NCBI RefSeq assembly: GCF_009193255.1
Contig: NZ_WACG01000001.1
Span: forward strand, 1,054,001-1,118,000
Length of the DNA stretch: 64,000 bases
Direction: 5' to 3'
Source: Arthrobacter koreensis
GTDB taxonomy: Bacteria; Actinomycetota; Actinomycetes; Actinomycetales; Micrococcaceae
Of this stretch, positions 51,900-59,679 are shown in pieces; position 1 is the first letter of the stretch, and each line of letters opens with the position of its first letter. The notes below the pieces were generated by a model. That model did not search any database. It had not been told where the DNA came from and saw only the letters and a list, made by a program, of their open reading frames with translations. The translations under genes and the position numbers were made by a program.

Positions 51900-52946
51900 T
51901 CAGATTCCGGCGTGGATCTGCCGTATAATTTCCAGCCCCCGCAGCGAGTCGGCAGGGTCCACCGGCAAGGATCCGCCCTCCAGGACAGCCGCCGCGAAGC
52001 CGGCATAGAACTCCTGGTAGCGGCCGGCTTCCGTGGGCACGGCGACGGCGGACGCAGCCGTCCCCAGCACCCCCCACTCGGCCGGCTCCTCTTCGCCGTA
52101 CCCCGGATCTCCGGGGAGCATCCCTGCGTCCAGCTGGGCTTCCTGCGGATCGACTCCGCGCTTGGTCCAGGCCGCTGTGGACCCGGTGACCCGGAACCTC
52201 TCCCCCGGCTGTGGGGCCAGGGAGTTCATCGACAGGTGGGACTGGACGCCCGAGGCGTGCTGCAGGACCACGAACACGTCGTCGTCCGGGCCGCCGCCCT
52301 CCCGCCGGGCGTGGACTTCCGCGTAGGCGGGTTCGGCAGGGCCGAAGAGCTGCAGTGCCTGGTCGATCAGGTGGGGGCCCAGGTCGAAAAGGATCCCGCC
52401 GCCGTCGTCCGTCCCGGCTTCCCGCTTCCAGGCCTTGGTGACGGACGGCTTGAAGGATTCCATGCGGGATTCGAACCGGCTAACCGTTCCGAGGTCGCCG
52501 CGTTCGATCAGGCCCTTGAGCGTGAGGAAGTCCCCGTCCCAGCGCCTGTTCTGGAAAACCGAGAGCGCCTTGCCGGCGGCGGCCGCCGTTTCCAGAAGGT
52601 CCCGTGCGGCCTGCGGAGAATGCGCGAAGGGTTTGTCAGCCACTACATGCAGTCCTGCGCGCAGCGCAGCAAGCCCCAGGGGCGCATGGGTTGCCGGGGG
52701 CGTGCTGATAACGGCGAGGTCCAGCTCTCCGGCCAGGGCCAGGGCGGCCTCCGCCGAGGGAACGACGGCGGCGCGCGGGTAAGCCAGCGAAGCGGCTCGG
52801 GCGCGTTCCGGGTCAGAGGTGACAATAACGTCCAGGGAGTACCGCGGATCGGCTTCGAGCAGCGGAGCGTGGAAGACCCTCCCGCCCAGACCGTAGCCAA
52901 GAAGGAGCGTGCGCAGCGGGCCATCCGCCGGTGCGGAGCCGGTCAC
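51900..52946 (-). CDS. Gfo/Idh/MocA-family oxidoreductase
   Basis: 348 residues. Rossmann start RTLLLGYGLGGRVFHAPLLEADPRY, EKP-like motif replaced by DKPFAHSP (VVADKPFAHSPQAAR), then GFO_IDH_MocA_C with FDLGPHLIDQALQLFG. Closest in style to YdgJ/IolW-like dehydrogenases. NAD(P)-dependent sugar or polyol oxidoreductase; substrate unknown. Start overlaps the preceding ANTAR gene as ATGA. 51816-51899 shows no gene. Confidence 0.9.
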   Translation of the reverse strand: MTGSAPADGPLRTLLLGYGLGGRVFHAPLLEADPRYSLDVIVTSDPERARAASLAYPRAAVVPSAEAALALAGELDLAVISTPPATHAPLGLAALRAGLHVVADKPFAHSPQAARDLLETAAAAGKALSVFQNRRWDGDFLTLKGLIERGDLGTVSRFESRMESFKPSVTKAWKREAGTDDGGGILFDLGPHLIDQALQLFGPAEPAYAEVHARREGGGPDDDVFVVLQHASGVQSHLSMNSLAPQPGERFRVTGSTAAWTKRGVDPQEAQLDAGMLPGDPGYGEEEPAEWGVLGTAASAVAVPTEAGRYQEFYAGFAAAVLEGGSLPVDPADSLRGLEIIRQIHAGI

Positions 52947-53680
52947 GGGGTCTGGAAGTGCGTCTCGGAGGGGGCGCCGTTAAGCTTCGCGACGATCTCC
53001 CCTGCCAGCACCTTGAGTTTGAGGTTCCTGCTGTTGGAGGCCCGCTTCAGTGTGTCGAATGCCTCGCTTTGGGAACAGCGGTTCTGGCCCATGATGATGC
53101 CGATTGCCAGGTCGATGTCCGTTCGCGACTGCAGCACGGACTGCAGGTCTTCAACGGTGGCTGCGCGCTGGGACATCCGCACTGCCAGGCGGAGTGCCAT
53201 TGAGGCTTCCTCCGCGTACGTGCGTGCCACCCGCTTGAAATCTTCATCGAAGGTCATGGCGGAGCGCGAGTAGAGATTCAGGGCTGCCCGGGCATGCCCC
53301 TCCAGCCTCAGCGGAACCGCGTAAATGGACCGCACACCCTGCGCGACGACGTGGCGCATGTATTCGGGCCAGCGCTGATCGGCCGAGGTATCGGCAACGT
53401 CGACGGCCTCATGGACCCGAAGGGCATGCAGGCACGGGCCATCATCAAAGGCGTACTGCATCTCATCCATTTCCAGCGCGGCGCTCTCGCTGCTGGCAAC
53501 GGTGTAGTTATGTCCGCGGGACCGCTGCAGGGTGATGCCGCAGTACACCGTGCCCATGGAGGAGAGCGATGACGCGCTGAGCCGGGCCAGCTGCTGGAGG
53601 AATTCAAGTACATCCTCGTGGTGTATCAGCAGGTCCTGCAGCTGCGCTGCGGTGGCGGTCGCAGACCTCAGGTCATCCAT
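52943..53680 (-). CDS. GAF-ANTAR RNA-binding antitermination regulator
   Basis: 245 residues. GAF sensor domain about 30-165 (MGTVYCGITLQRSRGHNYTVASSES, FDDGPCLHALRVHEAVDV), then an ANTAR domain about 170-230: VEDLQSVLQSRTDIDLAIGIIMGQNRCSQSEAFDTLKRAS with the Ala/Gly pattern and conserved aromatic-poor helix turns. ANTAR proteins bind dual hairpins in mRNA to stop termination. Target unknown. Translationally coupled to the Gfo/Idh gene. Confidence 0.9.
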   Translation of the reverse strand: MDDLRSATATAAQLQDLLIHHEDVLEFLQQLARLSASSLSSMGTVYCGITLQRSRGHNYTVASSESAALEMDEMQYAFDDGPCLHALRVHEAVDVADTSADQRWPEYMRHVVAQGVRSIYAVPLRLEGHARAALNLYSRSAMTFDEDFKRVARTYAEEASMALRLAVRMSQRAATVEDLQSVLQSRTDIDLAIGIIMGQNRCSQSEAFDTLKRASNSRNLKLKVLAGEIVAKLNGAPSETHFQTP

Positions 53681-56805: not shown

Positions 56806-56841
56806 ACAAGTACTCGCGGCGACGTCGTAAAACACAAAGAA

Positions 56842-56876
56842 ACGGACCTGCCGGTGGGGGGTACCGGCAGGTCCGT
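56842..56876 (-). terminator. Terminator of the RiPP-like operon
   Basis: ACGGACCTGCCGGT/ACCGGCAGGTCCGT, 14-bp stem, 7-base loop. On the minus strand it is followed by TTTCTTTGTGTTTT, so it ends the operon 58340-56993 before the katE promoter. Confidence 0.8.
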
Positions 56877-56992
56877 CTCCGTGGGGAAGCTTCCCCTACC
56901 GCTCCGAAACCCCGGCCCCGCAGCGGGCCGGCGTGCCGGAACGGACTTCTCTGTGCCCGGCAGGCGCGGGCTGTGATGATGCTGCGGCGGCG

Positions 56993-57184
56993 CTACTCCC
57001 AGAGACAGTCCGCCCAGGCGGCGTCCCTCAGGTAGTCCCGTGCCGGACCCACATTGAAGAGCTCACCGCGGGACTCCACGTATCCCATGCCGCGCATGTC
57101 AACCACTGTTTCCTCGTCGCAGCCCAGGACCGTCCCCAGGTCCTTGTCGTCAGCAGCCAGAACTACTTCATTCCGTTGCGACAT
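56993..57184 (-). CDS. 63-residue protein of the RiPP-like locus
   Basis: Starts MSQRNEVVLAADDKDLG with GAGAAGGAGG eight bases upstream; a longer in-frame start at 57226 lacks a ribosome site. Acidic, one Cys near the middle (VLGCDEE) and one near the C-terminus (WADCLWE). No leader/core boundary, no known family. Last gene of the operon, 51 bp after the lantibiotic-dehydratase-like gene. Could be a second peptide substrate, a partner or an immunity protein; sequence does not say. Confidence 0.65.
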   Translation of the reverse strand: MSQRNEVVLAADDKDLGTVLGCDEETVVDMRGMGYVESRGELFNVGPARDYLRDAAWADCLWE

Positions 57185-57235
57185 ATTGACCGCCTCCTTC
57201 TCCTCGACGCCCTCTCCCCGGTCCATCCGGGAGAA

Positions 57236-58195
57236 CTAGTGCTTGTCCAGGAGCATGGCTTCGCGCTCTGTGCTCCAGGTTCGGGCGTACAGTCCCATGG
57301 CGGCTTCTTCCCGCAGGGACAGACCCAGGCGGTTAAGGAGCATGTGGGCCTGGTAAACCGTCAAATGCTGTGCACTGCGGCTCACGCGGGCCTTGTCCGC
57401 CCGGTACAGATAGGTGTCCATAGTCCGGAACCACCGGCGTCTCCAGTTTTCGACGGCGGATTCGGCTGCCGTAGCGGCCATCAGCCGGTGGGTCGGCATG
57501 ACCTTCGCACCCACCTGGACCGTCATGGCCTGCCGGACGCTGGCCGCACGCGGGCCGAACCCGGCGGTGCAGCTGCGCAGGTGGCTGTCCCAGTAATAGT
57601 CCCAGGAGAGCCGGCGCCGGTCCGGCCAGCTGGATGCCCGCGGACCCTTCATCATGCTGCGTGCCGAATCGAAGAGCAGCAGCGAGCCAAGTGCCCACCG
57701 GTTCTGCACCTTCGGAAAACGGGCCGTTGCCCAGGTGCCAAGGTCCGAGGACAGCTCGAAGACTTCCTCGGCGAGTGCCAGGCCTTCCACTCCGCCGTAC
57801 TTGGCCAGATCGGCTTCGATCCGCGGGTCCTGCTGCTCGGCGCCGCCGGGGCTCAGCCTGTCGCAGGCCGGATCACCGAAGGCGTGGGTCACGGTCAGGT
57901 GGCCGATGACACCGCTTGCCTGCTCCTGGAGTGCTCCGAGGAGGGACTTCAGCCGGTCCAGGGTTTCCTGGGGCGCCAGGACCTTCATGCGTACGTGGGC
58001 GTTCGCGGGTTCGGAGCAGCGGGTGTAGAACCACCGCTGCGCCCCCCACAGCTGGGCTTGCGCCGCCAGCGGGGTAACCAGTTCTCCAATGATGCCGTCC
58101 GCTACATCGAAGCCGCCGGTATAGATGGATAGTGTCCACCAGTGAGTGCTTGCATTAGTTCGCGAGGCGTTTCGAACTGCTGTTAGCTGGCTCAT
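57236..58195 (-). CDS. Stand-alone thiopeptide-type / lantibiotic dehydratase C-terminal domain protein
   Basis: 319 residues, GGAGGAAGAACGCC before ATG 58195. Family landmarks in order: WWTLSIYTGGFDVADGIIGEL (30s), WFYTRCSEPANAHVRMKV (near 65), ADLAKYGGVEGLALAEEVFELSSD (near 140-165), and C-terminal HMLLNRLGLSLREEAAMGLY. These are the hallmark blocks of TIGR03891/Lant_dehydr_C. Relatives eliminate glutamate from glutamylated Ser/Thr (LanB C-domain, TbtC) or catalyse pyridine formation (TbtD). No N-terminal LanB glutamylation partner is encoded nearby, so its chemistry is uncertain. It follows the 16-residue peptide gene. Confidence 0.85.
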   Translation of the reverse strand: MSQLTAVRNASRTNASTHWWTLSIYTGGFDVADGIIGELVTPLAAQAQLWGAQRWFYTRCSEPANAHVRMKVLAPQETLDRLKSLLGALQEQASGVIGHLTVTHAFGDPACDRLSPGGAEQQDPRIEADLAKYGGVEGLALAEEVFELSSDLGTWATARFPKVQNRWALGSLLLFDSARSMMKGPRASSWPDRRRLSWDYYWDSHLRSCTAGFGPRAASVRQAMTVQVGAKVMPTHRLMAATAAESAVENWRRRWFRTMDTYLYRADKARVSRSAQHLTVYQAHMLLNRLGLSLREEAAMGLYARTWSTEREAMLLDKH

Positions 58196-58289
58196 GGCGT
58201 TCTTCCTCCGGGTTCAAGTCTGGTTACCGCCGCTGGGGCGGGTCTAGATGTATTGCTGGTTGGTTCATCCCCCAATAGAGGGGCCTAGA

Positions 58290-58340
58290 TTAGAACCATT
58301 CCCAGCTCTTGATGGAAACCGGTGCAGTTGCCTTCTTCAT
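58290..58340 (-). CDS. 16-residue peptide, candidate RiPP precursor or signal peptide
   Basis: Encodes MKKATAPVSIKSWEWF then TAA, with AGAGGGG eight bases before ATG 58340. It is 94 bp upstream of the thiopeptide-type enzyme gene on the same strand. Features: basic start, three hydroxy residues (Thr5, Ser9, Ser12) that such enzymes could modify, and an aromatic C-terminus Trp-Glu-Trp-Phe. A very small gene, so chance is possible; position, start site and composition argue for it. Alternatives are an attenuation leader peptide or no gene at all. Confidence 0.5.
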   Translation of the reverse strand: MKKATAPVSIKSWEWF

Positions 58341-58710
58341 GGTCGTATCCCCTCTTTTGGTTCGGCTGGTTGCACAGCCGGTCGTGTTTGACTCCGAAAG
58401 CTTCCCCCGGGCCGGAAGGGTGTGTCCACCGTTACCAATTTCAGCTTCCTGTCATGTCCGGTTGGTGCCCCGGGGGTCGTTTTCGGCCTGGGCGCACTGC
58501 CTTCAAAAGCCCGCAGACAAGCGGAAATCGGCATTTTGGGTACCGAACTACCGGTCTAAGGTGGAGAATGGCATTAAGCTGTCATGTCACTCTCTTCGGG
58601 TTCCAATTTTGGGGCGCAGCGCGTTCCCCGAAGGCCGGCAGTTCTTGGGGGCATCAGGTGCACGCCGGATCCATGCCGGCCGTCCCAGCACCGCGGTTGT
58701 AGGAGGAGAT
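58341..58710. promoter_or_regulatory. 370-bp divergent control region with a 10-bp direct repeat
   Basis: Lies between the short peptide (minus) and the regulator (plus). CTGTCATGTC occurs exactly at 58449-58458 and 58579-58588, 130 bp apart, candidate sites for the adjacent regulator. AT-richer patches (ACCAATTTCAG, GGCATTTTGGG, GGCATTAAGC) could hold promoters. No convincing gene; open frames through here are short and lack ribosome sites. Confidence 0.45.
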
Positions 58711-59679
58711 TTGCTGGATCAGGTATCGGTTGAGGTGTACCGCTATGCGGTCTCCCATCCGGGTTGGACCCCTGCTGAAGCGTCCGATGCACTGGGCTAT
58801 ACAACGCGTGCCATAGACCGGGCCGTGGAAGAGCTCCGGTCCCGCTGCCTGCTCTTCTCCGAGGGCCCCGACAACCTTGTCTACACCGCCGTTTCCCCCG
58901 ACGTTGCCCTGGCCGAGCTGGTGGATCCGGATGAACGCGAAATGCTGGAACTGCGGGCGCGCATTGGCGCCAAACGGCGCGAACTGGCAAGCCTCGTGCC
59001 CACCTTCGCCGAAGCACGCCGCCAGGTAGCCGCAGACGCCTCCGTTGAAGTACTCGAGGACCCGGAGCAGGTGCAGCGGGTGCTCATCGAATACGGCCGC
59101 TCGGCGTCGGAAAGCGTGCTGATCGCGAGGCCGGGCCACGGCTCCAACGCGGACTTCCAGGAGGAAAGCGTGCAGAAGGACCTGGACCTGCTGCGCGCCG
59201 GTGTGAAGAGGCAGACCCTCTACCACTCCAGCACCCGGGACCACGTGCCAACCTGCAAGGCGGTCGAGCGGATCAGCGAGGCCGGTGGGGAGTTCCGCAC
59301 ACTGCCCTACGTGCCCATGCGCACGCTCATTTTCGATGACAAGGTGGCGGTCGTGGCCCGCCAGCTGCACACGTATGACAGGGCCGGCCTGGTAATCCGC
59401 GACGCAAACCTCATTGGCCTTTTCAGCAAGCTCTTCGAGTTCGCGTGGAGCCTCGCCGAGCCCTTCCTCGCGGACGACCCGGGCAAGTCCGGCCTGACCA
59501 GCACCCAGCGCTCCGTGCTGGCCGGGCTGGCGGCGGGGCACTCGGATGAGGTGATCGCGCGCCGGGTGGGCATTAGTGTGCGAACCTGCCGGCGGCACAT
59601 CGCCTGGATGCTGGAGGAACTGAAGGCGGAGAGCCGTTTCCAGGCTGGAATCAAGGCACACAAGGCAGGCTGGATCTAG
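58711..59679 (+). CDS. TrmB/LuxR-type transcriptional regulator of the RiPP-like locus
   Basis: 322 residues from TTG 58711, chosen because AGGAGGAG precedes it and upstream sequence is non-conserved in style. N-terminal TrmB-like winged helix (VEVYRYAVSHPGWTPAEASDALGYTTRAIDRAVEELRSRCLLF), central domain with a phospholipase-D-like fold pattern (ESVLIARPGHG, PYVPMRTLIFDDKVAVVARQ), C-terminal LuxR HTH about 262-322 (LTSTQRSVLAGLAAGHSDEVIARRVGISVRTCRRHIAWMLEEL). Such regulators often sit by actinobacterial peptide-natural-product genes. No receiver domain, so it probably senses a small molecule or peptide. Confidence 0.85.
   Translation: MLDQVSVEVYRYAVSHPGWTPAEASDALGYTTRAIDRAVEELRSRCLLFSEGPDNLVYTAVSPDVALAELVDPDEREMLELRARIGAKRRELASLVPTFAEARRQVAADASVEVLEDPEQVQRVLIEYGRSASESVLIARPGHGSNADFQEESVQKDLDLLRAGVKRQTLYHSSTRDHVPTCKAVERISEAGGEFRTLPYVPMRTLIFDDKVAVVARQLHTYDRAGLVIRDANLIGLFSKLFEFAWSLAEPFLADDPGKSGLTSTQRSVLAGLAAGHSDEVIARRVGISVRTCRRHIAWMLEELKAESRFQAGIKAHKAGWI

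Follow-up and report, generated by a model that had tools for sequence, protein, structure and literature searches.

A conserved W-x-W micropeptide cassette with a stand-alone Lant_dehydr_C protein in Arthrobacter and its relatives: a candidate peptide-signal system

What might a stand-alone protein of the LanB elimination-domain family do beside a peptide gene of only 16 codons? The question was raised by a locus of Arthrobacter koreensis, located in a window of 64,000 nucleotides (NCBI RefSeq assembly GCF_009193255.1, contig NZ_WACG01000001.1, positions 1,054,001 to 1,118,000 of the forward strand), and all coordinates below count from the first letter of that window. A first-pass annotation of the sequence had cautiously suggested a minimal set outside the known classes that resembles systems for ribosomally synthesized and post-translationally modified peptides (RiPPs). 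In this study, the four genes below were found to form a conserved cassette, which is read here, tentatively and at a probability somewhat short of even, as a self-contained and autoregulated peptide-signal cassette.

58290..58340, minus strand: W-x-W micropeptide gene of 16 codons plus stop, MKKATAPVSIKSWEWF (translation; a W-x-W open reading frame occupies this position in all 47 distinct cassettes)
57236..58195, minus strand: stand-alone Lant_dehydr_C protein of 319 amino acids, LanB elimination-domain fold (PF14028, Foldseek, and relatives)
56993..57184, minus strand: conserved protein of 63 amino acids with a predicted small winged-helix-like fold (alignment and AlphaFold2 model)
58711..59679, plus strand: divergent TrmB-like/LuxR-type regulator of 322 amino acids with a TTG start (PF00196, LuxR-family structures, a weak TrmBL2 match, and alignment)

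These genes, together with a terminator, had been named in the first-pass annotation, and all were recovered by translation, Pfam searches, and a terminator scan. The TrmB/LuxR-type identity of the regulator also stood, but its start was revised: the alignment places it at the TTG codon at 58711, while the open frame begins at 58309.

A search of reference genomes with the enzyme returned 23 loci, 22 from Arthrobacter and one from an uncultured member of the Micrococcaceae, with best segments 52-99% identical. In profile searches, the enzyme was detected in 39 of 197 genomes of the family, in eight of 248 genomes of the order (three from the same family and five weak matches), and in four of 396 genomes of the phylum (the window's own and three weak matches, the latter falling in open frames of more than 600 amino acids). 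The peptide, the enzyme, and the 63-amino-acid gene were found together in 36 of the 39 enzyme-bearing genomes, spanning five genus-level groups, and the regulator lay within the fetched locus in 34 of these 36, the exceptions being genomes G451 and G522. Genome G403, from a sixth genus group, encodes the enzyme, the regulator, and a candidate peptide, MEATFSQILRSGGIYDWPTVA, with a Y-D-W variant of the motif, and no relative of the 63-amino-acid protein was found in it. Genomes G400 and G416 carry a split-LanB cluster rather than the W-x-W cassette.

After removal of duplicates, 71 distinct enzyme genes were retained, 47 with the 63-amino-acid protein and 24 without it. A W-x-W open reading frame with a start codon and with the motif close to its end was found just upstream of all 47 of the former, its stop 76-148 nucleotides from the enzyme start, and within 260 nucleotides upstream of none of the 24 latter. 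Among these 24, locus L078 shows the W-x-W DNA pattern within that distance, lacking a start codon, and chance W-x-W frames exist farther away, for example at 418 nucleotides in L082. As a control, such a frame occurred in 705 of 40,000 random 260-nucleotide windows of the same loci, some of which overlapped cassettes. The 47 cassettes are not independent, as they represent five genus groups with the window's genus over-represented. The co-occurrence and the conserved gene order that the first-pass annotation had made its touchstone were thus observed: the peptide and the 63-amino-acid gene accompany the enzyme in 47 of 47 cassettes and the divergent regulator in 43, while four contain no regulator inside the fetched locus. 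Judging by this conservation, the peptide frame (58340..58290, minus strand) is real. Among the 180 of 197 family genomes listed, none from the five genus groups was without the cassette; a presence throughout the groups, as far as listed, is easier to reconcile with a physiological role than with an optional antibiotic.

The precursors occurred in a long and a short form. The long form, found in 27 of 47 cassettes and comprising 44-93 amino acids, begins with a positively charged segment that passes into a hydrophobic stretch and then into small residues, followed by one or more cores (for example MKKIIGAAAGLLVAAAALAPATPAVGAASWDWPKTISASWDWPK in L043 and MFKKIAGITAGLLLAVGAVSAATPAVAVDQGQQSNAIVTAAWDW in L052), and these N-termini look secreted, resembling Sec-type signal peptides by eye. 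One core was present in 14 long precursors, two in eight, three in three, four in L014, and six in L042; hence, 13 of the 27 carry repeated cores, and the number varies between relatives. The short form, of 7-17 amino acids and without a hydrophobic stretch, accounted for the other 20, all in the window's genus. It includes MKSWDWF, MTKVWDWI, MASKVWDWI (or MKMASKVWDWI), MNRIRISVAGSKSWEWF, and the window's own MKKATAPVSIKSWEWF, with a C-terminus of the pattern K-[SV]-W-[DE]-W-[FIL]. The W-[DE]-W core was observed in 46 of the 47 precursors, locus L023 having W-G-W. Across all 47, no Ser, Thr, or Cys was conserved at the core, and Cys occurred only in L066 and L068, inside the signal-like segment. 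The lack of such residues makes lanthionine or pyridine chemistry unlikely.

An enzyme tree of 66 rows (five dropped; a quick method, with some long branches) placed 18 short-form rows on one side of a branch with a support of 88. As one change between long and short suffices, a single loss of the signal-like segment is the simplest account. The 21 solo enzyme copies, which lack the peptide, also required one change, with a branch support of only 22, and a branch with a support of 99 unites the solo with the short-form enzymes. In addition, insertions near profile position 92 are present in the enzymes of L070 (about 39 residues) and L072 (about 27 residues), and both loci have a precursor with three NWEWPK units.

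The precursor repertoire makes it highly improbable that the short frame is merely a tryptophan-sensing leader peptide (attenuator) of the enzyme operon, as might be suggested by its tiny size, its two Trp codons, the GC-rich and, by eye, hairpin-like stretches before the enzyme start, and a location among genes of amino-acid and 2-oxoacid metabolism. More than half of the precursors (27 of 47) are long and have signal-like segments, repeated cores being present in 13 of these, and the enzyme tree nests the short forms among the long ones. The residue between the two Trp is Asp or Glu in 19 of 19 short-form rows compared, no terminator-like site lies between the peptide and the enzyme on the operon strand of the window, and no Rfam match was obtained.

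The enzyme matched the Pfam family Lant_dehydr_C (PF14028) with 68.7 bits against a cut-off of 24.4, in agreement with the family call of the first-pass annotation, and TIGR03891 with 42.0 bits, below the cut-off of 48.45. In a Foldseek search with its AlphaFold2 model (13 sequences, pLDDT 74.5, pTM 0.71), all 19 chains at E<=0.001 were MibB, MadB, a [4+2] aza-cyclase, TbtD, PbtD, TsrL, or NisB, including MibB at an E-value of 2.3e-7. As modelled, the enzyme has the LanB elimination-domain fold, as do peptide-modifying enzymes.

Positions that we take to be equivalent to residues of NisB, from alignments together with known motifs around these residues, were counted among 42 cassette enzymes, leaving out five that were matched in two pieces. 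The R784 equivalent was Arg in 21 and Lys in 19, the R786 equivalent was Arg in 25, and both were Arg in seven. The R826 equivalent was Arg in 13 and Lys in 27, with Lys also in both split-LanB controls. The H961 equivalent was His in 40 of 42, and all 42 retain the N and R that come after it; in the solo copies, this His was found in five of 22 (L071 counted among them). By these counts, the active site of the cassette enzyme is partly kept. The NisB variants R786A, R826A, and H961A are reported to glutamylate without eliminating (PMC4979651). In another study, dehydration was abolished in H961A, whereas seven residues were still dehydrated in R784A (PMC4341554), so that a loss of R784 says little. 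The NisB residue terms did not occur in the accessible portions of PMC7296275 or PMC12241602. A loss of eliminase catalysis, which had been suspected from the R784 and R786 equivalents, was withdrawn as a firm claim after the residue counts and the seven dehydrations of R784A. Solo Lant_dehydr_C paralogues (L019, L020, L051, L059-L065, L073-L078, and L080-L082) occur without the peptide, the 63-amino-acid gene, or the regulator in the fetched stretch, most of them also without the His961 equivalent, and genome G549 contains five such paralogues, three of them within 10 kb (L077).

The near-constant His, the N and R that follow it in every cassette enzyme, and the little that a loss of R784 signifies make it improbable that the enzyme-fold protein is a non-catalytic, peptide-binding chaperone or co-sensor that presents an unmodified peptide. 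Such a role would be in line with the varying R784 and R786 equivalents, with the absence of a detected glutamylation partner from the genome, and with the peptide-less copies, which mostly lack the His961 equivalent.

A stronger alternative, possible at clearly less than even probability, is that the W-x-W core gives rise to a new RiPP effector (antimicrobial, metallophore, or cofactor-like) and that the regulator controls its synthesis rather than sensing the peptide. The enzyme fold and the nearest equipped relatives are those of RiPP enzymes, repeated cores are typical of multi-core RiPPs, and the His961 equivalent is widely kept. This alternative is weakened by the R786 equivalent, which is Arg in only 25 of 42, by a core without conserved Ser, Thr, or Cys, and by a distribution without gaps in the five genus groups among the genomes listed; moreover, no immunity, transporter, or protease gene was recognized as common to the loci. 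The main argument against known chemistry comes from the composition of the core together with the missing partners.

With respect to these partners, no LanB N-domain (PF04738) was found in the window's genome, and the controls were silent. Among the 39 enzyme-bearing genomes, the domain was identified in G400 and G416, neither of which has a W-x-W cassette, and the search was imperfect, as G416 was matched only at an E-value of 1.2e-4, below the cut-off, though the whole protein passes. LanC (PF05147) was found in none of 20 genomes tested, the window's included, with a control matched in one of 14. YcaO (PF02624) was not found in the window's genome and occurred in three of the 20 tested (G400, G416, and G424, in the last far from the cassette). 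The lack of a glutamylation partner and a cyclase described in the first-pass annotation was thus borne out, and the conserved gene order, along with the absence of detected LanB N-domain, LanC, and YcaO genes, supports its hedged proposal of a minimal set outside the known classes. Since none of the three was found, a complete lanthipeptide cluster elsewhere in the genome does not explain the enzyme as a remnant.

The closest equipped relatives found, from the same bacterial family, were the clusters of G400 and G416. In G416 (L104), a LanB N-domain protein, a Lant_dehydr_C protein, an MFS protein, a candidate precursor, and a regulator lie together in a thiopeptide-like arrangement. The candidate precursor is rich in Ser, Thr, and Cys and includes ...SCPSSVSTLGTVGCAG, the TrmB/LuxR-type regulator is homologous to that of the window (268 bits), and a YcaO gene lies about 7.6 kb upstream of the Lant_dehydr_C gene. 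In G400 (L083), a YcaO gene is located about 7.8 kb upstream, N-domain and Lant_dehydr_C proteins are encoded, and no regulator match was present in the stretch. Both clusters differ from the cassette in having YcaO and a LanB N-domain, in the absence of a detected relative of the 63-amino-acid protein, and in the absence of a W-x-W frame within 260 nucleotides of the enzyme. Since these equipped clusters exist and their enzymes form the outgroup of the enzyme tree, the cassette may have arisen from a thiopeptide-like system by reduction and re-purposing, a direction that we infer.

A functional descendant is to be distinguished from a decayed remnant of a lanthipeptide or thiopeptide cluster, which is very unlikely. 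The nearest equipped relatives do sit in clusters with YcaO and split LanB, and the enzyme gene was matched in two frames in three distinct cassette loci (L017, L018/L079, and L021), either through real decay or through assembly error. However, 42 of the 47 cassette enzymes were matched in one piece, at 47-100% identity to that of the window, 28 positions are invariant across these 42 and the 21 solo copies, and the peptide and the 63-amino-acid gene go together throughout.

The 63-amino-acid protein matched no Pfam or NCBIfam family. Its weak matches included HTH_17 in Pfam (E-value of 0.21) and two unnamed families in PHROGs. An AlphaFold2 model (pLDDT 78) showed the order strand-helix-helix-strand-strand-helix, by which a small winged-helix-like accessory protein is predicted, and a Foldseek search with this model gave no match at E<=0.001. 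A RiPP recognition element (RRE) was considered and rejected, as the predicted order of elements looks like a winged helix of the MerR/excisionase type rather than a PqqD-type RRE.

The regulator matched the LuxR helix-turn-helix (HTH) family PF00196 with 34.5 bits (cut-off 23.5), and its residues 39-250 showed a weak match to TrmBL2 (E-value of 0.005). It thus appears to combine a C-terminal LuxR HTH with a TrmB-like middle domain, the latter resting on that weak match. A defence role was discarded, as it had only weak HTH matches of the regulator behind it. Beside five distant regulator relatives in other families, no Lant_dehydr_C neighbour was recognized by eye, and none was searched for. 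Two operator-like boxes were identified in the intergenic region between the regulator and the peptide:

58569..58588, minus strand: operator-like box 1, GNCATGNCNNNTTAATGNCA (intergenic alignment; cassette site in 20 of 20 genomes searched)
58435..58459, minus strand: operator-like box 2, having GNCATGNC in common with box 1 (intergenic alignment)

Box 1 was searched with at most one mismatch in 20 of the 36 cassette genomes, covering two genus groups. Of the 21 matches, 20 lay at the cassettes, one per genome, and the remaining one was in G522. In G451 (L012), the regulator is located about 10 kb away beside the aminotransferase and the box stays at the cassette, as it does in G522, where the regulator falls outside the fetched locus. 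The search is informative in these two retained boxes and in the near absence of strong sites elsewhere. For strong sites in these two genus groups, the result is in keeping with a dedicated regulator whose regulon comprises this one cassette.

On the signal-cassette reading, the operon would yield a W-x-W precursor, a protein with the LanB elimination-domain fold, and a small winged-helix-like accessory protein. The enzyme-fold protein would bind the peptide and probably modify or process it around the two Trp without tRNA-Glu chemistry. The finished peptide would then be released and probably read by the TrmB/LuxR regulator, which would act at the two boxes of the shared promoter region in an autoinduction loop of the pheromone type. 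The ancestral peptide was apparently made as a secreted precursor carrying between one and six cores, and in the window's genus this precursor shrank to little more than the core. This reading is preferred because the peptide, the enzyme, and the 63-amino-acid protein strictly co-occur (47 of 47 versus 0 of 24), because the divergent regulator is present in 43 of 47 cassettes and box 1 lies nearly only at the cassette, because the precursors are signal-like with repeated cores, and because the enzyme shares its fold with peptide-modifying enzymes and keeps the His961 equivalent in 40 of 42. A bolder version, possible at a probability well below even, would define a W-[DE]-W signal class in which a secreted repeat precursor evolved into a seven-codon gene, an enzyme of the LanB-lyase fold performs new Trp chemistry without a tRNA-dependent partner, and a TrmB/LuxR receptor controls only its own cassette.

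Several points weigh against the signal-cassette reading. The signal peptides of the long precursors were judged by eye, the short forms show no visible export route, and the regulator might respond to something other than the peptide. Box 1 was drawn up from these same promoters, so that its presence at the cassette is by construction; the reversed pattern gave 18 matches in the same 20 genomes, and the aligned regions of two genus groups beyond the two searched (for example L044 and L052) fit poorly. Neither an exporter nor a protease, receptor, or regulon was identified, though no search for a transporter was made in the rest of the genome. Beyond the enzyme, the regulator, and the aminotransferase, no family of at least 90 amino acids was common to more than 16 of the 23 loci compared, except for one opposite-strand family in 21 of 23, which we interpret as a shadow of either the aminotransferase or the regulator genes.

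Two further features complete the operon:

58390..58409, minus strand: element CGGGGGAAGCTTTCGGAGTC, kept across the short-form clade (sequence comparison)
56838..56880, minus strand: intrinsic terminator closing the unit of peptide, enzyme, and small protein (18-pair stem, T-rich tail)

The former is possibly part of the peptide promoter, and no sigma-70-like promoter was found in the cassette region. Three terminator-like sites were found in the region compared with 1.7 in shuffles, the stem at 56880..56838 being by far the longest. It adjoins a palindrome, GGGGAAGCTTCCCC, at 56883-56896, which resembles the element GGGGGAAGCTTTCGGAGTC upstream of the peptide. A conserved GC-rich stretch, hairpin-like by eye, extends between the peptide stop and the enzyme start (58195-58290, minus strand) and may set the ratio of peptide to enzyme. 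The cassette is flanked by a catalase on one side and a class I/II aminotransferase on the other, in keeping with the katE and aminotransferase neighbours named earlier. Among the 23 loci compared, two of which (L023 and L130) come from the same genome, an aminotransferase was present in 22 (all but the thiopeptide-like L104) and 2-oxoacid dehydrogenase genes in 16. The aminotransferase was rejected as a member of the system and read as background synteny because it occurs in 160 of the 197 family genomes. Farther away in the window, a frame at 52943-53680 (minus strand) presumably encodes a regulator of the GAF-ANTAR type, and a similar frame follows the solo enzyme in L020.

Known systems share some of these features. 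Split or extra LanB elimination-domain proteins (PF14028/TIGR03891) have the fold and Pfam family of the cassette enzyme, and extra copies in class I lanthipeptide clusters may, as has been noted before, do something other than elimination (PMC7268733). The cassette differs from class I clusters in the absence of a detected LanB N-domain or LanC from its genome, in a W-x-W peptide whose core lacks conserved Ser, Thr, or Cys, and in its dedicated regulator and 63-amino-acid protein. The [4+2] aza-cyclases of thiopeptide and pyritide systems (TbtD, PbtD, and TclM) are likewise stand-alone proteins, TbtD and PbtD with the same fold; in contrast to these systems, neither YcaO nor a dehydratase N-domain was detected in the window's genome, and the peptide has no conserved Ser pair. 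Short peptides adjoining a regulator are also familiar from the Gram-positive pheromones ComX and streptococcal XIP/SHP, with Trp in ComX and XIP, whereas the enzyme and regulator families of the cassette are different and no importer or receptor was identified. Extremely short RiPP precursor genes are shared with microcin C, whose seven-residue MccA precursor is paired with an adenylating enzyme, and with the biarylitides, which use a P450; the cassette has Lant_dehydr_C instead. The biarylitide precursor reportedly comprises five residues encoded by an 18-bp gene (PMC13417212). No description of the cassette was present among the literature matches listed, most subscription journals and bioRxiv lying outside the scope of the search; the fold and stray elimination domains are already known, and the cassette is probably undescribed.

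Stand-alone LanB elimination domains are known but unexplained, and the cassette represents a minimal natural set of one enzyme, one tiny substrate candidate, and one regulator, by which the question of extra elimination domains becomes directly testable. It also allows the reduction of a secreted-looking multi-core precursor to a gene of seven codons to be followed, a size that ordinary annotation easily overlooks. For Arthrobacter and related bacteria, the cassette constitutes a candidate system of peptide communication.

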